Both the position numbers and the translations under genes were made by a program. Below, piece after piece: positions 4,818-18,500 of a stretch of DNA of 64,000 bases; position 1 is the stretch's first letter; the number at the start of each line of letters is the position of its first letter. The stretch lies in NCBI RefSeq assembly GCF_003336875.1, contig NZ_QGNJ01000005.1, forward strand, positions 1-64,000, given 5' to 3'. Source of the DNA: Oleisolibacter albus (GTDB lineage Bacteria; Pseudomonadota; Alphaproteobacteria; Azospirillales; Azospirillaceae). A model generated the notes under the pieces. The model worked only from the letters and a program-made list of their open reading frames with translations. It ran no database searches and was not told the origin of the DNA.

Positions 4818-5249
4818 TCAGGCTTCGCCTTTTCCCTCCGGTCTGGCCGGCACGCGCCGCGTGGCGGGTCCTTGCCTGCTCCCCGCGTCCGCCTCGATTC
4901 CGGATGCCGGCGCTTCCGCCGCAGGCACAGCGCCCGACGGCGTCCGGCTTGCCCCCGTGCGGCCGCGGCCGCGCGGCCGCGGGCCGGCCGGGTCGGCCTC
5001 GCCGCTCCCCTGGTCCGACGCCGCCGACCGCCCCCGACGGGCCGGAGCCGCCTCCGTTCCCTCCGTCTGCGGCCCGTCCCCGGACACTGTGCTCACGGTC
5101 TCTGCACCGGTGTCGGCGCCCCCTTCCCCTTCGGCGAGAACCTCCTCCCGCGCCCTGGCCCAATGCTCGTCCTGCCGGCCATCCGGGCAACCTTCGCGTT
5201 GCCAGATGTCATAGGCCCGCTGCCGGATTTGCGCATCCAGATCAGTCAT
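4818..5249 (-). CDS. DUF2934 domain protein with disordered tail
   Basis: This 143-residue protein begins with a short DUF2934 domain (residues 1-35, TDLDAQIRQRAYDIWQREG then GRQDEHWARAREE), a small module of unknown function frequent in alphaproteobacteria. The rest is low-complexity, rich in Ala, Gly, Pro, Arg and Glu, and probably disordered. The ATG at 5249 puts the domain at the extreme N-terminus, as is usual, with a GGGG-containing ribosome site upstream. The longer frame to 5420 has no support. Direction is convergent with the small gene at 4554-4784. Confidence 0.75.
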   Translation of the reverse strand: MTDLDAQIRQRAYDIWQREGCPDGRQDEHWARAREEVLAEGEGGADTGAETVSTVSGDGPQTEGTEAAPARRGRSAASDQGSGEADPAGPRPRGRGRTGASRTPSGAVPAAEAPASGIEADAGSRQGPATRRVPARPEGKGEA

Positions 5250-5713
5250 GCTGTTGCCCCGTGGTTGGCCTGTTATCCTTGCGCCCTCTAACGGCGCGAG
5301 TGCGCCAGGGTTCCACCGGCCCCTCCGATCCCGGAGCGCAACCGCACGTCCTCCGAGTCGGCGCCAGATCGACGCCCCGGCCCGCGCCGGTGGCGCAGAA
5401 GATCCCGGAACTGCGCGCATAAGGTGATGACAAGCCGCATATCCCGGCGCATCATATCAGTTCATGCCGTGCTTGCACGCGATAGAGGGGGCAAGACCTC
5501 TGCGTGTGCATGGAAGCTATGGACAGACGGCTGTGGCGGCTTCATCCTCGCACACGATAGTATGTGATTCATGACAGCGGCCCGCCCTCTGTCGGCCGGA
5601 CGCACCTCCAAGGGTTGTGCAGCACCGAATTTTCACATACGCATTCAGCCAATTCCGCCCTGCAGGAAGAACAGAGTGGCTGCAGCGGTGCAATATGGAG
5701 GCTTTAGGTTTCT
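5250..5713. other. Intergenic region before the XRE regulator
   Basis: This 464-bp stretch has no convincing coding frame. It is the divergent control region for the DUF2934 gene and the XRE regulator. AT-richer segments near 5560-5580 and 5625-5660 could hold promoters, but I see no match good enough to call. GGAGG at 5697-5701 is the likely ribosome site for the XRE gene, although its spacing of 12 bases is long. Confidence 0.4.
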
Positions 5714-8177: not shown

Positions 8178-10127
8178 GTGACGGCGATTTGCGGCAGCTG
8201 GCATTTGGATGGTCACCCCGGGGCGGCCGAGGATTGCAGCCGCATGCAGTCGGCCCTGTCCCTCTATGGCCGCGACCGCAGCGCCCGCCGGGACATGGGG
8301 GAGATCGCCTTCGGATTGCAGCTGTGGCGGCTGGTGCCGGAGGACCGGTTCGACCGCCAGCCGCTGGTGGGCGGCGGCGGGCGCTTCACCCTGGTGGCCG
8401 ACGTGCGCATCGACAACCGGCCGGAACTGGCCGAAGCGCTGGGCCTGCCCGCGGACCGCACAGCCAGCATGGCCGATGCGGACTTCATCCTGGCGGCCTG
8501 GGAACGCTGGGGCGAAGACTGCCTGGACCGGCTCTATGGCGATTACGCCTTCGCCCTCTGGGACAGCACGGAGCGGGTGCTGCGGCTGGTACGCGATCCG
8601 CTGGGCAAGCGCCCCCTGTTCGTCCACCGCAGCCCCGGCCATGCCACGTTCGCCACCATGGCCAAGGGGCTGCATGCGCTGCCGCACATCCCGCGTGCCG
8701 CAAACCCGGAGATGATCCGGGACTTCCTGGCCCTGCTGCCGCATGTGGGCACACAGAGCTTCTTCGCCGGGATCGAGCGGATCGAACCGGGCCAGATGCT
8801 GCGCCTGTTGCCCGACGGCCGGGCCGAGCGGGTGGACTGGTATGACCGCACGCGCATCCGCAGCGTCGCCCTGACCCGGCCCGAGGAGTATGTGGAGACG
8901 TTCCGCAGCCTGTTCGACCGGGCCGTGAGCGACTGTCTGCGCACCACCAGCCCCCATGTTGCCAGCCATCTCAGCGGCGGCATGGACAGCAGCACGGTGA
9001 CGGCCACCGCCGCCAGACTGCTGGACGCCCGCGGACAACGCCTGACCGCCTTCACCCATGTGCCGCTGCCCGGCGCGCCACTGATGCGGCAGGCCAGGCG
9101 GTTCGGCAATGAAGGCCCGCTGGCCGCCAGCCTGGCCGCCCGCTATGCCAATATCGACCATGTGCTGGTGGATTCCGCCAAACGACAGATCGGCGACGAT
9201 TTCGACAGCAATTTCCATTACTTCGAATATCCGCTGCTGAATCCCGCCAACAGCCAGTGGGGCAGCGAGATCGACCGGCTGGCTGCGGCGCGCGGGGCAA
9301 GGCTGGTGCTGAACGGCCAGTTCGGCAATGCCACCCTGTCCTGTACCGCCTATGAGCGGCTGCCCGAACTGCTACGCCGGGGCCGGCTGCTGGCCTGGCT
9401 GCGCAATGCGATCCCGCTGGCCCGCAGCGGCCAGATGCGGGCGGTGTCGGTGCTCTGGCGCAGCCTGGGTCCCTTCCTGCCCCCGGCCCTGCTCAGCGCC
9501 GCCCGCCGCCTCGGCAACAGCCATGACTGGTCCCTGGAGGGGTATTCCTCGCTGAAGCCGGAGGTGGTGCAGTCGCCAGCCATGCAGGCGCGGCTGGCCG
9601 AGGTGGGGATCGATGGCCGGTTCGCCCCCTATGCCGATTCACGCAGCCCGCGGATCTTCATGCTGTGGCGCGTCGATTATCTGGCGCAACACCAAAAGGG
9701 CATTCTCGCCTCCACCGGCGTCGACAGCCGCGACCCGACCCTCGACCGACGCTTCGTCGAGTTCTCGCTGGGGCTGCCGTCAGAGATGTTCCTGCGGGAC
9801 GGGCAGTGCCGCTGGATCTTCCTGCAGGCCTTCGCCGACCGGCTGTCACCGGAAATCCTGACCCAGCGCGGCAAGGGGCTGCAGGCGGCGGACTGGGCCA
9901 CGCGGCTGCGCGCCGACCTGCCGGCCCTGCGCAGCGAGATCGAGCGGGCCCAGCACAGCAGCACCGCCGACGCGCTGATGGATCTGCCGGGTCTGCTGAC
10001 GCTGGCTGGCGAAGGGCCGCGCACCAATGGCGAAGATCCGGACGAGGATATGGCCTATCGCTGCCGCTTCCTGCGCGGGCTCGCCATGGCGCATTTCCTG
10101 CGCAAGCTGGAGGCCGGGAATTACTGA
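8178..10127 (+). CDS. Asparagine-synthetase-like lasso peptide cyclase (C protein)
   Basis: This 649-residue protein has the asparagine synthetase B architecture: an N-terminal glutaminase-like domain (about 1-200; ADVRIDNRPELAEALG, WERWGEDCLDRLYGDYAFALWD) and a C-terminal AMP-forming synthetase domain with the PP-loop HLSGGMDSS near residue 266. The canonical catalytic Cys2 is missing: the GTG start gives MTAICG. Loss of glutaminase activity is typical of lasso peptide cyclases (McjC-like), which adenylate an Asp or Glu side chain to form the macrolactam. GAGGAGA precedes the GTG; the frame is open further upstream but overlaps thiE. Two lasso-type precursor genes lie just downstream on the opposite strand, which supports this role over ordinary asparagine synthesis. 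Confidence 0.82.
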   Translation: MTAICGSWHLDGHPGAAEDCSRMQSALSLYGRDRSARRDMGEIAFGLQLWRLVPEDRFDRQPLVGGGGRFTLVADVRIDNRPELAEALGLPADRTASMADADFILAAWERWGEDCLDRLYGDYAFALWDSTERVLRLVRDPLGKRPLFVHRSPGHATFATMAKGLHALPHIPRAANPEMIRDFLALLPHVGTQSFFAGIERIEPGQMLRLLPDGRAERVDWYDRTRIRSVALTRPEEYVETFRSLFDRAVSDCLRTTSPHVASHLSGGMDSSTVTATAARLLDARGQRLTAFTHVPLPGAPLMRQARRFGNEGPLAASLAARYANIDHVLVDSAKRQIGDDFDSNFHYFEYPLLNPANSQWGSEIDRLAAARGARLVLNGQFGNATLSCTAYERLPELLRRGRLLAWLRNAIPLARSGQMRAVSVLWRSLGPFLPPALLSAARRLGNSHDWSLEGYSSLKPEVVQSPAMQARLAEVGIDGRFAPYADSRSPRIFMLWRVDYLAQHQKGILASTGVDSRDPTLDRRFVEFSLGLPSEMFLRDGQCRWIFLQAFADRLSPEILTQRGKGLQAADWATRLRADLPALRSEIERAQHSSTADALMDLPGLLTLAGEGPRTNGEDPDEDMAYRCRFLRGLAMAHFLRKLEAGNY

Positions 10128-10231: not shown

Positions 10232-10393
10232 TTAACTGAAGCCAGTTCCATCAAACGCTCCGGACGAACCATTCTGGGTCTCGATCATCGCCAGTTCTGA
10301 AAGGGCCGGCGCCTGCCAGGGCTTGCGGACACGGTCCGGCGTCTCACCCACAGCGATCAGGACCTGCTCGGTCCGCTCAGTCTGCTCACGCAT
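10232..10393 (-). CDS. Lasso-peptide-like precursor A1, 53 aa
   Basis: The ATG at 10393-10391 opens a 53-codon frame. The leader (residues 1-40) ends KPWQAPALSELAMIETQ and matches the lasso leader pattern Y/W-x2-P-x-L-x3-G/A-x4-T, with Thr at -2. The predicted core is NGSSGAFDGTGFS: Asp at core position 8 could close an 8-residue ring with the N-terminal amine, leaving a GTGFS tail. The C-terminal Ser matches substrates of HPr-kinase-like lasso tailoring kinases, and such a kinase is encoded at 15131-16069. Core position 1 is Asn, which is unusual since Gly, Ala, Ser or Cys is common. The gene is a paralogue of precursor A2, with nearly identical leader DNA. AGGGGA lies 10 bases before the ATG. 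Confidence 0.82.
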   Translation of the reverse strand: MREQTERTEQVLIAVGETPDRVRKPWQAPALSELAMIETQNGSSGAFDGTGFS

Positions 10394-10462
10394 CACTCCG
10401 CCATCCCCTTATATGTGTAAATGCGTCAACCTCATTCCCGGCAGAGCCAGTGATATACTGTT

Positions 10463-10495
10463 TCACCTATAGGTGATCACACCATATTTTTGCAA
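10463..10495 (-). promoter_or_regulatory. Promoter of precursor A1 with overlapping palindromic operator
   Basis: Reading the minus strand, TTGCAA (10495-10490) is followed after 18 bases by TATAGG (10471-10466). The -10 lies inside a perfect 14-bp palindrome, TCACCTATAGGTGA (10463-10476), a good candidate operator. The predicted transcript start leaves a leader of about 65 bases before the ATG. The spacer word AATATGGT directly after the -35 is also present in the A2 promoter, which supports a functional, shared signal. Confidence 0.6.
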
Positions 10496-10793
10496 AGATA
10501 TTCTCTTGAAAATGGCCGATTTCTGTAAAAAATTCCCCTTTGCCGGTTCAGGCCACAGACAATAAGCGGCCACGGACATCATCGTGCCAGCCTCGTCCGA
10601 CAAAGCTGAATCCCTGCCGGGGCTGCTGGCGGCCGAGAGGCCGATACACACGGGCTTCATCGGGCAGGCTTCATCGAGCAGGCTTCATCGGGAGGACTAT
10701 TCCGCACGGCCGCCAGATCGGGCTGGAGAGACAGCAACACAGACATCGAGGAGACGGGTGCCGGCATCCGGGCAACCGGCGGGATAACCTGAC
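10496..10793. other. Intergenic region upstream of precursor A1
   Basis: I see no credible gene in this stretch. It carries an AT-rich segment (10496-10550) that may contribute upstream promoter elements for A1. A short imperfect repetition, GGCTTCATCGGGCAGGC / AGGCTTCATCGGGAGG, occurs around 10654-10695. The rest is the 3' flank of the exported-protein gene at 10794. Confidence 0.35.
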
Positions 10794-11246
10794 TTACCAA
10801 TCGAGACCGAGTTTTCTGGCTTCGTCCCTGATGGAAATCATCTTGTCGATGGCAGGAAGCGGCTGGCCGAGAATTTTCTGGGCCGCCATCCGGTTCCAGT
10901 CGTTGGGCACCAACTGCACACGCAGGTCGCCTGGGTCAATGATCCCCCAATTGTCCAAGTCTCGACAGCCTGAGCCGCCGCAATAGGCCTGGAACAACAC
11001 GGTAGGCCTGTTACGCCCGTTCCTGAGGCATACGCCCCCGATAAAATCAATATTGCCGTCATAGCGCAGCACCGTCGCCCGGCTATCCCGGCTGACGGTG
11101 AGCACGGCTTCCACATGCTCCTCCCCTTCGGTGCGCTTGTTGAAACTGAACGTCACGTCGGCACCACCACAGGAAAAGGCGCCCTCGGCACGTGCGGCAA
11201 CCGGTGCCATTGCCAGCATGGATGCCACCAGCATCGAACGCAGCAT
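10794..11246 (-). CDS. Exported hypothetical protein between the two precursors
   Basis: This 150-residue protein begins with a clear signal peptide (MLRSMLVASMLAMAPVAARA) and a mature part of about 130 residues with four Cys (FSCGGADV, GGVCLRNG, AYCGGSGCRD), probably disulfide-bonded in the periplasm. It ends in a helical segment (DKMISIRDEARKLGLDW). The ATG at 11246 is preceded by GGAGA at good spacing. The frame is open further upstream, but that extension is repetitive. I do not recognise the family. It lies on the same strand as and between precursors A2 and A1, so a link to export or immunity is possible but unproven. Confidence 0.7.
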   Translation of the reverse strand: MLRSMLVASMLAMAPVAARAEGAFSCGGADVTFSFNKRTEGEEHVEAVLTVSRDSRATVLRYDGNIDFIGGVCLRNGRNRPTVLFQAYCGGSGCRDLDNWGIIDPGDLRVQLVPNDWNRMAAQKILGQPLPAIDKMISIRDEARKLGLDW

Positions 11247-11340
11247 CAATGCGTCTCCGGAAAACTGAATATTTCGACAAGCATCCTTGCTCACCGACAT
11301 GCCGTCAATCCGTGGCATGCTCACCTTGTCATACCGATCG

Positions 11341-11370
11341 AAATCACGACGGCCGAAATCACGACGGCCG
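11341..11370. repeat. 15-bp tandem duplication
   Basis: The unit AAATCACGACGGCCG occurs twice in direct succession upstream of the exported-protein gene. It may affect that gene's promoter or simply be a slippage duplication. Confidence 0.8.
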
Positions 11371-11708
11371 AACGAAGCGCGACAAACCGCGCATTCAGCA
11401 AATGATTTCCGCATCAAGGCAAAATAATACTGATGAATTTTGCACCCCGGCGCGGGGGTGCAGCAGCCTCAACCAAAACCAGTAAAAATACACCAAGCGG
11501 CAGCATGAAATAATCTGGCATCACCGCTCGATAAACGGGCGGCAAATAAACGCCTGCCCCGCGGCGGCGGGGCAGGCGATGCACAGTCTGGAACGACGCC
11601 AAGTCCGGAACACCAGCCCCAGCACGTCACAGCGTTGGAGCCATCACAGGATTGGACTTACCGCCCAGACCCGCTTGGCCGGCCGTGATTCCGGCGTCAC
11701 TGGTTCGA
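11371..11708. other. Intergenic region between precursor A2 and the exported-protein gene
   Basis: No supported gene. It holds the A2 terminator (11551-11578) and an AT-rich stretch at 11400-11525 that is the likely promoter zone of the exported-protein gene. A second GC hairpin (CCCCGGCGCGGGGG) lies around 11445-11458. An open frame on the minus strand at 11414-11602 runs through the terminator and is not credible. Confidence 0.4.
11551..11578 (-). terminator. Terminator of precursor A2
   Basis: This is a perfect 12-bp stem (CGCCTGCCCCGC with its complement) and 4-base loop. On the minus strand it is followed by TTTATTTG, which fits a factor-independent terminator about 130 bases after the A2 stop. 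Confidence 0.75.
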
Positions 11709-11870
11709 TTACGAGAAAATACCGCCGTCAATAGTGCCGGGTCCGCCAGCCCGGGTCTCGCTCATCGCCAGTTCTGACAGGGCCGGCGCCTGCCAGGGCT
11801 TGCGGACACAGTCCGGCGTCTCACCCACAGCGGTCAGGACCTGCTCGGTCCGCTCAGTCTGCTCACGCAT
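11709..11870 (-). CDS. Lasso-peptide-like precursor A2, 53 aa
   Basis: This is a 53-codon frame from ATG 11870; a second in-frame ATG directly upstream at 11873 is an equally possible start. The leader differs from A1 at only four of 40 residues and keeps KPWQAPALSELAMSETR, with Thr at -2. The predicted core, AGGPGTIDGGIFS, is a good lasso core: Ala at position 1, Asp at position 8 for macrolactam closure, and a GGIFS tail ending in Ser. Conserved leader with diverged core is the hallmark of RiPP precursor duplication. The C-terminal Ser again fits a lasso tailoring kinase. The downstream hairpin and upstream promoter are well formed, so the gene looks expressed as a single unit. Confidence 0.85.
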   Translation of the reverse strand: MREQTERTEQVLTAVGETPDCVRKPWQAPALSELAMSETRAGGPGTIDGGIFS

Positions 11871-12149: not shown

Positions 12150-12455
12150 ATGCCGCTGGATCTCGCCACCGTGACCGCTGAAGAGTTCGAGCCGCTGCGG
12201 GGCGGCCGTTTCCGCGTCTGCTGGGAAGGGCTGGAGGAGACCCTGACCCTGCAGGAAATCCGGCGCCTGCGCTACGGTCTCCCTGGTGGACGGTCGCCCT
12301 TTGCCCTGACCTTCAAGGGCGGATCCGACAGCATCCTGCTGAACCAGCGCATCCATCCGCTCCAGGCCGAGGGGCTGGGCGATATCGAGATCTTCCTGGT
12401 CCCAATCGGCCGCAACGACGACGGCACCTATCTTTACGAAGCCGTGTTCAACTGA
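12150..12455 (+). CDS. DUF6916 family protein
   Basis: This 101-residue protein resembles DUF6916, a small beta-rich family often encoded beside tail-collar (microcystin-dependent) proteins. Visible features are FEPLRGGRFRVCWEGLEETLTLQEI at the start and a conserved-looking end (DIEIFLVPIGRNDDGTYLYEAVFN). The ATG at 12150 was chosen over the upstream in-frame start because the protein then begins at the conserved region. It points toward the collar/GNAT gene set on the opposite strand. Function is unknown. Confidence 0.7.
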   Translation: MPLDLATVTAEEFEPLRGGRFRVCWEGLEETLTLQEIRRLRYGLPGGRSPFALTFKGGSDSILLNQRIHPLQAEGLGDIEIFLVPIGRNDDGTYLYEAVFN

Positions 12456-12578: not shown

Positions 12579-13076
12579 TCATGCGGCCCAGTGCAGGCGG
12601 ATATAGGGTCCCACCAGCTCCACCTCCCGGAAATCAAGGCGATTATAGAGCCGGCGGGCCGGGTTGCTGTGTTCCACATGGATGGAACAGCTTTTCCCGG
12701 CGGCCCTGGCCCGTTGCTGTACCGCGCGCAACAGGGCCGTGCCGAAGCCGCGGCCGCGATAATCGGGCAGGAAGCCGATCTCGACAATGCGCAAATCAGC
12801 GGGATTGTGATCCCACAGGTAAAGCCGCCCGGCCGCCTGTCCATCCACCTCCACCACCATGAACTCGGCATCATGGTAGTGTTTTTCGTAATGCAAACAT
12901 TGCAGCCGGAACTGGTCGTTGAGAAAGGCCAGCTTCTGCTCATCGGTCCAATCGATGAGAACCTGCACCTCTTCCCAGCGATGGCTGACATAGATCTCCC
13001 GGATCAGCGGCTGGTCCGCCCCGGTCAGGGGGCGGACCGTAACCCGATGTCCGGCGATGGCACCGTCGAACTGCAC
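12579..13076 (-). CDS. GNAT-family N-acetyltransferase
   Basis: This 165-residue protein has the GNAT fold: VTVRPLTGADQPLIREIYVS at the N-terminus, VEIGFLPDYRGRGFGTALLRAV with the acetyl-CoA-binding R/Q-x2-G-x-G/A loop, then SIHVEHSNPARRLYNRLDFRE. The GTG at 13076 has GGGAG at good spacing; a TTG at 13103 would add nine residues with a poorer ribosome site. It is the last gene after three tail-collar genes on the same strand, a pairing seen in other bacteria. The substrate is unknown; modification of a neighbouring protein or peptide is one possibility. Confidence 0.82.
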   Translation of the reverse strand: MQFDGAIAGHRVTVRPLTGADQPLIREIYVSHRWEEVQVLIDWTDEQKLAFLNDQFRLQCLHYEKHYHDAEFMVVEVDGQAAGRLYLWDHNPADLRIVEIGFLPDYRGRGFGTALLRAVQQRARAAGKSCSIHVEHSNPARRLYNRLDFREVELVGPYIRLHWAA

Positions 13077-13121
13077 AGCGGACTCCCGATCGATTCTGGC
13101 CAACCAAGGCCGCCCGGGCCC

Positions 13122-13670
13122 TTAGGGACGCTCGGGCCAGATCCCGTTGGTGCAGATACAGAAATTGATGCAGAGCCAGGGCTGCATATTGTTGTGCGGC
13201 TGCGTTGACAGGCTACCGGCCGGACCGATGACAGCGAGATCAAGACCGGTGGTCGTGGTCCAGGGGTCGATTTCCGTCGTGGAGTAATTCCACTGGTTGA
13301 AGGTCCGCGACAGCGTCACGGTCGATGCCGGTGCATTGACCAGATTGGCCGCAACACCGGTGACGAGGGCATTGACCGCATGCTGATGCGGGGGCATCTG
13401 CGCCGGGGACAGGGTTTCGGACAGGGTTCCCCCCTTGCTGGCAACCGGACGCGAGGTCAGGTTCGCGCCATTGCCCGCTCCGACCGGGGTGCGCCCCTGG
13501 AGATTGGGCAGCCCGATGGTGGTGCGGCCGTCGCCGCCATAGAGCGAGCCGATCACCGCCGCCAGGGCCTGGAACTGCGCCAACGGCAGGGTTGTGCCAT
13601 TGCACAGCGCCCAGTCCTGGGGCGCCCAGTTGAAGCCCAGGGGGCGGATTTCGCCGAAAAAAGGATCCAT
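13122..13670 (-). CDS. Phage-tail-collar (microcystin-dependent-type) protein 3
   Basis: This 182-residue protein contains a Phage Tail Collar domain: FFGEIRPLGFNWAPQDWALCNG at the N-terminus, then YGGDGRTTIGLPNLQGRTPVG, LSPAQMPPHQHAV and a C-terminal HNNMQPWLCINFCICTNGIWP. This is the hallmark of MdpB-like proteins, which occur as small gene families in many bacterial chromosomes outside prophages. GGGAGGAG precedes the ATG. It is paralogous to the two upstream genes, and GNAT follows with a short gap. The role is unknown. Confidence 0.88.
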   Translation of the reverse strand: MDPFFGEIRPLGFNWAPQDWALCNGTTLPLAQFQALAAVIGSLYGGDGRTTIGLPNLQGRTPVGAGNGANLTSRPVASKGGTLSETLSPAQMPPHQHAVNALVTGVAANLVNAPASTVTLSRTFNQWNYSTTEIDPWTTTTGLDLAVIGPAGSLSTQPHNNMQPWLCINFCICTNGIWPERP

Positions 13671-13701: not shown

Positions 13702-14289
13702 TCAAGGCCGGTCCGGATAAAGGCCGCTGACGCAGATGATGTAGTTCAGCGCCAGGAACGGCATCATGTTGTTGTGGGGATTGCCGAGTTCCTTGCTGCT
13801 TCCACCGCTGGCCATACCGCCGGAATAATCCAGGAAATTGGGATCAGCGACCTGCGCGATGGCCCCAGCCGTGGTGGTATTCATGTACAGCCCGCTGGTC
13901 TGGCCATTGGGCGTGACCACCGCCAGCATGTTGTTGGTGGGAATGCCCGTGCTGGCCGCCACATTGACGGCGGAAAAGCTATGGGTATGGGCGGCATTCT
14001 GCGCCGGTGTCAGCGATACCGTCTCGCTCCCCCCCATCTGTCCCAACAGGAAATTCGTTGTCGTCACACCCGCCGCCGCCGGTGCCTGACCCTGCCCCAC
14101 CACGGCCCTTCCGCGGAAATCCGGAAGGTTGAATGAATTCACACCATCACCGCCATAGGTTACACCAATCAGGGAATAGAGCGGCTGATATTCCCGGATT
14201 GCGAGTGCGGCCCCGTTGCACAGCATCCAGTCCACAGGTGCATAGATCCCGCCGAACAGGCGGATCTCACCGACGAAACAATCGGCCAT
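13702..14289 (-). CDS. Phage-tail-collar protein 2
   Basis: This 195-residue paralogue of the flanking genes has CFVGEIRLFGGIYAPVDWMLCNG, YGGDGVNSFNLPDFRGRAVVG, LTPAQNAAHTHSF and NPHNNMMPFLALNYIICVSGLYP. The ATG at 14289 is preceded by GAGAGGAGG. The frame is open upstream into the preceding gene, but that overlap region translates to the wrong frame of collar protein 1. The variable middle between the HxH motif and the C-terminus is the likely exposed part. Confidence 0.88.
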   Translation of the reverse strand: MADCFVGEIRLFGGIYAPVDWMLCNGAALAIREYQPLYSLIGVTYGGDGVNSFNLPDFRGRAVVGQGQAPAAAGVTTTNFLLGQMGGSETVSLTPAQNAAHTHSFSAVNVAASTGIPTNNMLAVVTPNGQTSGLYMNTTTAGAIAQVADPNFLDYSGGMASGGSSKELGNPHNNMMPFLALNYIICVSGLYPDRP

Positions 14290-14312: not shown

Positions 14313-14858
14313 TTACGGACGGGACGGATAGACGCCCGTCGTGGCGATACAATAATTGGTCACGGCCCAGGGCTGCAGGTTGGGGTGAGGCGCCCCCCCG
14401 CTGGAGGACACGGTGCTGGCGGCAAGGGCCACCGGCGCGTTGCCGCCCCGCGGCGCATAGATCGCGATGACGGGATTGTTCTGGTACACCCCGGGCTGGG
14501 CCAGCAGGTTGGCACCGGGTGCCGGACTGTTGCCGGTGGTGGTCACCACGTTGGTGGTATGGATATGCTGCGGGATCTGCGGCTGGGTCAGGGTCACCGT
14601 CTCGCTGCCGCCGGTGTTGCCGATCTGGTAGGCCGCGGTGCCGGCCGGATCGACATACTGGCCCTGTCCCAGCGGCACCCTCCCCCGCAGGTCGGGGAGG
14701 TTGAAATTGTTGACCCCGTCCCCGCCAAACTTGTTGCCGATCAGCGAAAACAAAGCCGGGTTCTGCCGCACCTGCAACTGCGCCCCCGTACAGGCCGCCC
14801 ATCCCCGTGGGGCCCAGACAAAGGAGAACATCCTGATTTCACCGACGAATGGATCCAT
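14313..14858 (-). CDS. Phage-tail-collar protein 1
   Basis: This 181-residue protein is the first of the three collar genes. Landmarks are PFVGEIRMFSFVWAPRGWAACTG, FGGDGVNNFNLPDLRGRVPLG, LTQPQIPQHIHTTN and HPNLQPWAVTNYCIATTGVYP. The ATG at 14858 has GGGGAG at good spacing. The upstream in-frame extension (to 15032) is Arg/Gly-rich and unrelated. The 270-bp gap to the kinase gene suggests its own promoter. Confidence 0.88.
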   Translation of the reverse strand: MDPFVGEIRMFSFVWAPRGWAACTGAQLQVRQNPALFSLIGNKFGGDGVNNFNLPDLRGRVPLGQGQYVDPAGTAAYQIGNTGGSETVTLTQPQIPQHIHTTNVVTTTGNSPAPGANLLAQPGVYQNNPVIAIYAPRGGNAPVALAASTVSSSGGAPHPNLQPWAVTNYCIATTGVYPSRP

Positions 14859-15130: not shown

Positions 15131-16069
15131 TCAACCGGCCTGCCCGCCGCCGGCGCGGACGACCCCTTCGATCACGGTGCAGAGCGCATCCAGCCGTCCC
15201 AGATCCTGGGGCCGCCGCAGCAGATGGACAGGCGTGCGCTGGGCCAGGGCCGTGGCCCAGCGGAATGCCGCGCGACCGCCATCCAGTGCAGCAGCACTCT
15301 CGCGGCGGTGAATGACCCGGTGCAGCAGGGCCGCAGCTTCGGGCCGGGTCAGCTGTTCAAGCGCGGGAGCCGTGCGCCCCGGTTCCGGCCTCAGCACCAG
15401 GACAGCCGCCAGCGGCACCGGTTCCGACTGGAAGACATGCAACTGCGGCATGTGGAACTTGGCCAGATCGCGGCGGACACGCAGATCCTGCTCCATCGCA
15501 TCGCCGAACACTTCCGCCGATGCGGTCCATAGCTTCAGCGACGGATATCCGGGGTGGACCAGCCCGGAGGCGGGATCGATCACCGCCTGATCATCGGTCA
15601 GCAGCCGGGCGCCACGCTGGATCAGGGCACGGGCGGTGGTGGACTTTCCCACCCCGGAATCACCGGCCACGGCCACACCGACCCCATCAATGGCAAGAAC
15701 GGCGGCATGCAGGGGGGGCTGCCCGCGCTGATGACACAGCGCCGAGGCGGCGGGGCCGCTGACATAGCTGTGCAACTCGGCGTCGGTCAGGCCGCCGGGG
15801 CCGGTATCCACGGTCACAAGCCGTCCCGCCTCGACCAGGAGCCGCACCCCGTCCGGCGTCTGCAACAGAATGCGGCCATCGGCCAGGACATCGATGGCGG
15901 GCCGGGACCGCTCCACCACGCCCTCCGGCAGCGGCACGGGCGCGAAACGCACCATGATGACATCGCTGTCGGCCGTCTCCGTCACCGGGCCGCCGTCATC
16001 GGGGCGCAGGAACGGAAGCGGACGCTCCGAGCGCAGCCGCCAGCCATACAAACGGTAATCATAGGTCAC
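15131..16069 (-). CDS. HPr-kinase-like lasso tailoring kinase (K protein)
   Basis: This 312-residue protein has a C-terminal HPr kinase/phosphorylase-like catalytic domain with P-loop GDSGVGKST near residues 136-144 and RLLTDDQAVID (Asp-Asp after the beta strand). The N-terminal ~110 residues (LYGWRLRSERPLPFLRP) are specific to this HprK-related group. In lasso clusters such kinases phosphorylate the C-terminal Ser of the precursor (the paeninodin-type kinase family), and both nearby precursors end in Phe-Ser. I chose the GTG at 16069, which has GGGGGA upstream; a GTG at 16090 is possible. It follows the pqqD-like gene on the same strand. Confidence 0.78.
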   Translation of the reverse strand: MTYDYRLYGWRLRSERPLPFLRPDDGGPVTETADSDVIMVRFAPVPLPEGVVERSRPAIDVLADGRILLQTPDGVRLLVEAGRLVTVDTGPGGLTDAELHSYVSGPAASALCHQRGQPPLHAAVLAIDGVGVAVAGDSGVGKSTTARALIQRGARLLTDDQAVIDPASGLVHPGYPSLKLWTASAEVFGDAMEQDLRVRRDLAKFHMPQLHVFQSEPVPLAAVLVLRPEPGRTAPALEQLTRPEAAALLHRVIHRRESAAALDGGRAAFRWATALAQRTPVHLLRRPQDLGRLDALCTVIEGVVRAGGGQAG

Positions 16070-16139
16070 TGCCCGTCCCCCACAATCCACACACCGAAAC
16101 GGCAGACCACGCTGCCCGGCGCCGCCGGCACGGCCACTG

Positions 16140-16418
16140 TCACGGCTCGATCCGGATCAGCCGCTTGTCCAGCATCTCCGTCAGGAAGCGCAGCACGCAG
16201 TCACGGATCACCCCGGCCTCTGCGTCATATTCGGCCTCGAGCCGACGGCACAGACCGTCCACCTCGACCGGATTGGCCAGTTCCTGCCAGATGCGGGAGC
16301 CGACATCGTTCAGCGCATAATACTGGCCGCTGTCCATATTCATCATCACCGTTTCGCCGTCGATCTCTGTCGACAGCAGATCCCCATTGGCCACAACCCG
16401 ATCCGTCAAGGCTACCAT
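16140..16418 (-). CDS. PqqD-like leader-peptide-binding protein (RRE / B1 protein)
   Basis: This 92-residue protein is of the PqqD family: LSTEIDGETVMMNMDSGQYYALNDVGSRIW, then LCRRLEAEYDAEAGVIRDCVLRFLTEML. The winged-helix RiPP recognition element binds precursor leaders and brings them to processing enzymes; in lasso pathways this is the B1 protein. The ATG at 16418 fits the family start; the longer frame (16451) adds 11 unlikely residues. The partner leader peptidase (B2, transglutaminase fold), often adjacent, is not found here. It sits upstream of the kinase with a 70-bp gap. Confidence 0.82.
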   Translation of the reverse strand: MVALTDRVVANGDLLSTEIDGETVMMNMDSGQYYALNDVGSRIWQELANPVEVDGLCRRLEAEYDAEAGVIRDCVLRFLTEMLDKRLIRIEP

Positions 16419-16605
16419 TATCAGACCCCACATTCGGCAAAGGTGGGCCAAGATATGCTGGCGCGCTCCGAGCCGCTACGGAAGAAATCCGCCCCGGGCC
16501 GATGAATTCCAGGCTCGGCATCGGGCCGGCCTTTGCGGCATGATCCGGGCATGGAACCGGTGGCGGGGCCAGCGAAGTCCCCGACCAGACCAGCAGGAGA
16601 AGCGC

Positions 16606-16652
16606 ATGTCCTCCCAGACCCCTGCCCATCCCGTCCGGGGCGGACGGCTGCC

Positions 16653-16656
<4 letters not shown>
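16606..16656 (+). CDS. Possible 16-codon leader peptide overlapping the activator start
   Basis: The ATG at 16606 has a near-perfect ribosome site (CAGGAGA, spacing 5) and opens a 16-residue frame, MSSQTPAHPVRGGRLP. It ends at a TGA overlapping the GTG start of the following activator in GTGA. This arrangement allows translational coupling. Alternatively a frameshift has separated a true N-terminus from the activator. Confidence 0.4.

Positions 16657-18500
<1,844 letters not shown>

Follow-up and report, generated by a model that had tools for sequence, protein, structure and literature searches.

Lasso precursors are recognized by a [YW]-x2-P-x-L leader motif, a Thr at position -2 and an acidic residue at core position 7-9, and genome mining for lasso pathways usually looks for compact clusters. 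Huascopeptin has 13 residues, and its pathway is not known to include a kinase. The kinase of the paeninodin system phosphorylates the last Ser of its precursor (excerpts of PMC9266682). Lasso cores range from 13 to 33 residues (excerpts of PMC13352647), and the 13-residue cores described here are at the lower end. Two frames, A1 and A2, were analysed in a 64,000-nucleotide stretch of Oleisolibacter albus DNA (the window). Judged from sequence, they very probably encode lasso precursors. The whole explanation, to which we assign a probability of about 0.85, is that A1 and A2 are kinase-associated lasso precursors served by paeninodin-like enzymes, with a B2 protease in trans, in a recurrent tail-collar neighbourhood. 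It is supported by domain matches and by a leader-conserved, core-divergent pattern in both the window pair and a second pair on contig C33.

A preliminary description had proposed two 53-residue minus-strand frames with a common leader, and both translate as described. Their leaders, said to differ at four of 40 positions, are identical at 36 and differ at residues 13, 21, 37 and 40. The last 13 residues, said to differ strongly, are NGSSGAFDGTGFS in A1 and AGGPGTIDGGIFS in A2 and differ at seven positions. Translation also gives the Thr at -2, Asp8 and final Phe-Ser claimed for both cores, and a W-x2-P-x-L motif is found in the leader as WQAPAL. Both frames carry the precursor hallmarks and a C-terminal Ser. 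The proposal that these are lasso precursors whose 13-residue cores form an 8-membered ring is strongly supported in silico by the flanking cyclase, B1 and kinase genes (Table 1) and by similar frames in relatives. Beyond that description, the window has no B2 gene, and a collar module lies inside the cluster. The paeninodin precursor model NF033524 gave no match to A1 at E <= 1 and stayed under its cut-off on A2.

Table 1. Features of the window, followed by precursor-like frames in three loci of the Tistrella genus (positions within each locus)
Feature	Positions	Strand	Evidence or remarks
Precursor A1 (predicted)	10232..10393	minus	53 aa, core NGSSGAFDGTGFS
Precursor A2 (predicted)	11709..11870	minus	53 aa, core AGGPGTIDGGIFS; NF033524 paeninodin family 19.6 bits (cut-off 27)
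Lasso-type cyclase (C)	8178..10127	plus	NF033535 254 bits (cut-off 525); PF00733 98 bits (cut-off 21)
DUF6916 protein of collar module	12150..12455	plus	PF21880 82.7 bits
GNAT acetyltransferase of collar module	12579..13103	minus	PF00583 55 bits
Tail-collar protein A	13122..13670	minus	PF07484 82.5 bits
Tail-collar protein B	13702..14289	minus	PF07484 match at 14104-14271
Tail-collar protein C	14313..14858	minus	PF07484 93 bits; start set by comparison
HPr-kinase-like protein (K), putative precursor Ser kinase	15131..16090	minus	PF07475 43 bits (cut-off 33.3); P-loop GDSGVGKST
PqqD-type leader-binding B1	16140..16451	minus	PF05402 64.5 bits (cut-off 23.4); NF033536 70.4 bits (cut-off 80); start codon uncertain
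Precursor-like frame, L121	9531-9698		B1-GNAT-DUF6916-collar locus, no local cyclase
Precursor-like frame, L123	8549-8734		B1-GNAT-DUF6916-collar locus, no local cyclase
Precursor-like frame, L125	9508-9741		B1-GNAT-DUF6916-collar locus, no local cyclase

Nucleotide changes between A1 and A2 are clustered in the core (hypergeometric P = 2.5e-11), with 5 of 120 nt different in the leader and 21 of 39 in the core. Twelve of the 13 core codons are changed, some of them synonymously, at conserved Gly, Asp and Ser positions; the 40 leader codons have one synonymous and four non-synonymous changes. Ungapped flanks differ at 33/60 nt upstream and 47/60 nt downstream, which leaves weak similarity on the upstream side and no similarity on the other, and the conserved block thus consists of little more than the leader. 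This is what one would expect if the leader, which binds the enzymes, were retained while the cores were swapped or driven apart by selection, perhaps by gene conversion. The common leader suggests that one enzyme set serves both precursors while the cores diverge. A search of 59 relatives with A1 returned the window pair, a frame on contig C2 and a weak match in G024 (E 0.0027); the latter lies within a 230-aa frame and was dismissed as chance. Between A1 and A2, frame 10794-11417 (minus strand) has an apparent signal peptide by eye and no Pfam or NCBIfam match.

The cyclase gene has a GTG start and an SGGMDS motif and is convergent with A1. Its best model is NF033535, below the curated cut-off, and PF00733 is over its cut-off. 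Glutamine-dependent asparagine synthetases have Cys at residue 2, unlike the window cyclase, a contrast that favours the lasso reading. The HprK-like kinase exceeds the PF07475 cut-off. B1 exceeds the cut-off of PF05402 and falls below that of NF033536. The precursor, cyclase and B1 scores below the cut-offs of the NCBI models weigh against the lasso reading; such scores are expected in a divergent group. The collar trio and GNAT gene (minus strand) and the DUF6916 gene (plus strand) are positioned between the kinase and B1 genes and the precursors. Divergent from B1, plus-strand frame 16533-18500 combines a PEP-hydrolase-like domain (PF09370), a sigma-54 activator domain and a Fis-type HTH.

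In the proposed pathway, B1 would bind the WQAPAL leader and present the precursor, and the kinase would phosphorylate the C-terminal Ser (Ser53). B2 would then cut after residue 40, two residues on from where the conserved Thr-x pair begins, and the cyclase would join residue 1 to Asp8, forming an 8-residue ring with a 5-residue tail. This order is taken from paeninodin, where the kinase step precedes B2 and C (excerpts of PMC9266682). Phosphorylation of the final Ser is plausible because the homologous paeninodin kinase acts in this way (same excerpts). A 5-residue tail leaves little for threading, so the terminal phosphate might, speculatively, help hold the threaded tail. B2 would act in trans, most likely from a solitary gene on contig C41.

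Similar frames occur in relatives. At E <= 1e-40, 32 cyclase matches were found in 22 of the 82 genomes of the window's family. They often accompany a precursor-like frame with the same leader motif, Asp or Glu at position 8 or close to it and, in most cases, Ser or Thr as the last residue; examples of the cores are NTGGVQGDDGFGS (L073), NGGTPPADDGFGT (L072) and NNSSIVSDSTSDSHS (L106). The L077 frame ends in Ser-Gly, and at L079, L080, L104, L109 and L111 it is uncertain which residue begins the core or where the ring closes. No precursor-like frame was found at loci L075, L102 and L110. A genome_contigs scan with the cyclase as query gave four distant loci, which added little. A strict precursor motif gave 24 matches in 23 of 87 collar-bearing loci, all within 3.5 kb of the collars. 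It was present in 20/34 loci with a cyclase match, missing the other 14, and in 3/53 without one, all three of which have B1. The other 763 kb gave two matches, both adjoining a cyclase-type gene. The motif was composed after the relatives had been inspected, so the one independent check is that it stays silent where lasso genes are absent. Possible tailoring or export genes are common to several relative loci and absent from the window locus: an ABC transporter (L074 14636-16621), a sulfotransferase (L102 10258-11121), a JmjC-type gene (L077 10376-11638) and a nucleotidyltransferase (L109 13094-14299).

The collar, GNAT and DUF6916 genes were at one point taken as unrelated neighbours, as the genome's other lasso loci lack them; the relatives' loci overturned this. 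A collar gene is present in the fetched stretch at 21/32 window-family cyclase matches, at a median distance of 1,062 bp and a maximum of 3,787 bp. Eleven cyclase loci have no collars, of which five (L071, L113, L115, L134 and L135) have <3.8 kb on one side. Collar loci were chosen by eye among the matches listed. DUF6916 matches were fetched from a first set of 25, save two weak ones (G176 and G325), and from a second set of 52, save the second match of G622, the third match of G735, and G572, G546, G501, G484, G537 and G475. Among 51 fetched DUF6916 regions outside the family, eight have a cyclase (E < 1e-60); these eight span seven families by automated label, and all of them have B1. This count leaves out L131, which is from the same family, and takes as negative L154, where the cyclase match is weaker (2e-40) and a precursor-like frame is present. 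Estimates of how often the link would arise by chance presume independent genomes and an approximate number of collar clusters, and their P values are given no weight here. Three further regions, from the Tistrella genus, have B1 and no cyclase. Their precursor-like frames are flanked by the DUF6916 gene on one side and the collars on the other, and are oriented like the collars. On plasmid pTM1 of T. mobilis, the cyclase, HPr kinase and PqqD genes are adjacent.

There is close to an even chance that the collar module marks a common insertion hotspot and that its closeness to lasso genes is functionally meaningless. Neither cyclase nor B1 is found in 40 of the 51 DUF6916 regions outside the family, and inside it eleven collar-bearing regions (L086, L088, L090-L096, L099 and L131), some of which are short or carry no more than two collars, have no lasso gene. 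In genus g2 the same site is found both with and without lasso genes. These lasso-free regions and the mixed site indicate that the module is widespread alone and that its link to lasso genes recurs but is not universal. A mere hotspot fits less well with collars within 3.8 kb of two-thirds of the family's cyclase matches, with a gene order that differs among loci and with the precursor-like frame and B1 inside the module at the three Tistrella-genus loci lacking a local cyclase. Lasso and collar genes also sometimes stand head to tail (L100 and L080); at L100 tens of bases separate the last collar gene from B1, and B1 from the kinase. The nearest solved relatives of the collar proteins are phage tail fibres. 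An AlphaFold model of one collar protein (pLDDT 67.8, pTM 0.48) gave a collar resemblance to T4 gp12 as its sole outcome. A functional partnership is a more doubtful idea: the lasso peptide, phosphorylated or not, could be the working partner of the non-phage collar trio, which would assemble into a tail-fibre-like heterotrimer and carry the peptide, display it or respond to it, with the variable core setting specificity and one dispersed enzyme set serving several precursors across the genome.

The pathway appears to be spread over the genome. PF13471, the B2 model, has no match in the window and four elsewhere in the genome, which in total encodes four B2 proteins, seven PqqD-like proteins and four lasso-like cyclase loci besides the window. 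The window contig (C40) and C1 each have cyclase, B1 and kinase genes, with no B2 nearby. C33 has B1, a kinase and two precursor-like frames, with no cyclase or B2 nearby. These frames, at 11644-11820 and 12015-12191 of L039 (G000:C33:164000-183000), are in tandem on the minus strand and encode 53 aa from ATG, with 13-residue cores. Their leaders differ at 3/120 nt, their cores at 14/39 nt and their upstream sequences at 5/100 nt. The C2 frame (L013, G000:C2:1-16000, 5214-5387, minus strand) has a 13-residue core, AFNGGLGDGNTGS, and no lasso enzyme was found within that 16-kb stretch.

One B2 gene, C41:32912 (PF13471, 69.6 bits), is solitary and lies some 200 bp downstream of a TonB receptor-like ORF, so judged from its sequence. 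In five of six loci (L072, L073, L074, L077 and L079; not L075), the relatives' B2 matched this copy best. Across loci, C41 B2 scores correlate with those of the C40 kinase (Spearman 0.72, p 1.1e-4, n = 23), not significantly with C40 B1 (rho 0.39, p 0.06, n = 24) and not with the C40 cyclase (rho 0.12, p 0.57, n = 23). The B1 and cyclase values weigh against assigning this B2 to the window system. For the remaining genomic B2s, rho against the kinase was -0.46, -0.37 and 0.14. With moderate confidence, from these comparisons, the solitary C41 gene is the candidate B2 of the window system.

A decaying cluster, with A1 and A2 as true lasso precursors, is improbable; in this reading it has lost B2 and yields no product, and the other genes are relics. 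It would account for the missing B2 and for the lack of a window gene from an ABC-exporter family common to 17 relative and comparison loci. Every reading frame is intact, however, the few leader changes and the retained Asp8 and final Ser do not suggest relics, and C41 still encodes a B2 that resembles those of complete clusters in relatives. A non-lasso peptide-modification pathway with PqqD and HprK-like proteins is very improbable: it finds some support in weak HprK_rel_A and SynChlorMet-type matches to the kinase and B1, whereas the best models for 8178-10127 and B1 are the lasso cyclase and lasso PqqD, and the acidic residue position, Thr at -2 and leader motif all fit lasso precursors.

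Under the favoured reading of kinase-associated lasso precursors with a B2 in trans, mining for compact clusters would miss precursors such as those on C33 and C2 and would misjudge completeness, since the pathway parts are apparently spread over the genome. The recurrent collar neighbourhood is more surprising than a precursor pair with an apparently dispersed pathway. No report of a lasso peptide-tail collar link was found in the literature searched, which extended to neither preprints nor most subscription papers. Among the lasso and PqqD papers listed, one names a tail fiber protein, and its excerpts show separate entries in a gene table. Among the phage-tail papers listed, one, a long review, names lasso peptides. 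At most, this suggests that the association is unreported. No literature was found on DUF6916, and none dedicated to Azospirillum lasso peptides by title or opening of the abstract. On dispersed lasso pathways, nothing was plainly on point among the literature matches listed. The recurrent tail-collar link is a clue to the role of kinase-associated lasso peptides in Alphaproteobacteria.

Among known systems, paeninodin from Paenibacillus dendritiformis (kinase PadeK) resembles the window in its HprK-like kinase, split B1/B2 and precursor ending in Ser (excerpts of PMC9266682). In the window, by contrast, the cores have 13 residues, two precursors have a common leader, the locus lacks B2, a collar module lies alongside and the match to the paeninodin model is below cut-off. 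Huascopeptin is likewise very short, and is termed the smallest lasso peptide in excerpts of PMC9784485, which give it a Gly1-Asp7 ring; a ring from residue 1 to Asp8 is proposed here. Huascopeptin comes from Streptomyces. The collar proteins match the collar region of the phage T4 short tail fibre gp12 by profile and, in a low-confidence model, by fold, but are three paralogues of about 180 aa outside any evident phage. Comparable arrangements are on plasmid p1 of Azospirillum sp. TSH100 and on an A. oryzae plasmid, where an asparagine-synthase-like cyclase, a PqqD protein, three 'tail fiber' genes and a GNAT are annotated together. Those clusters differ from the window in having B2 inside the cluster, extra oxygenases and one precursor-like gene each, labelled hypothetical.
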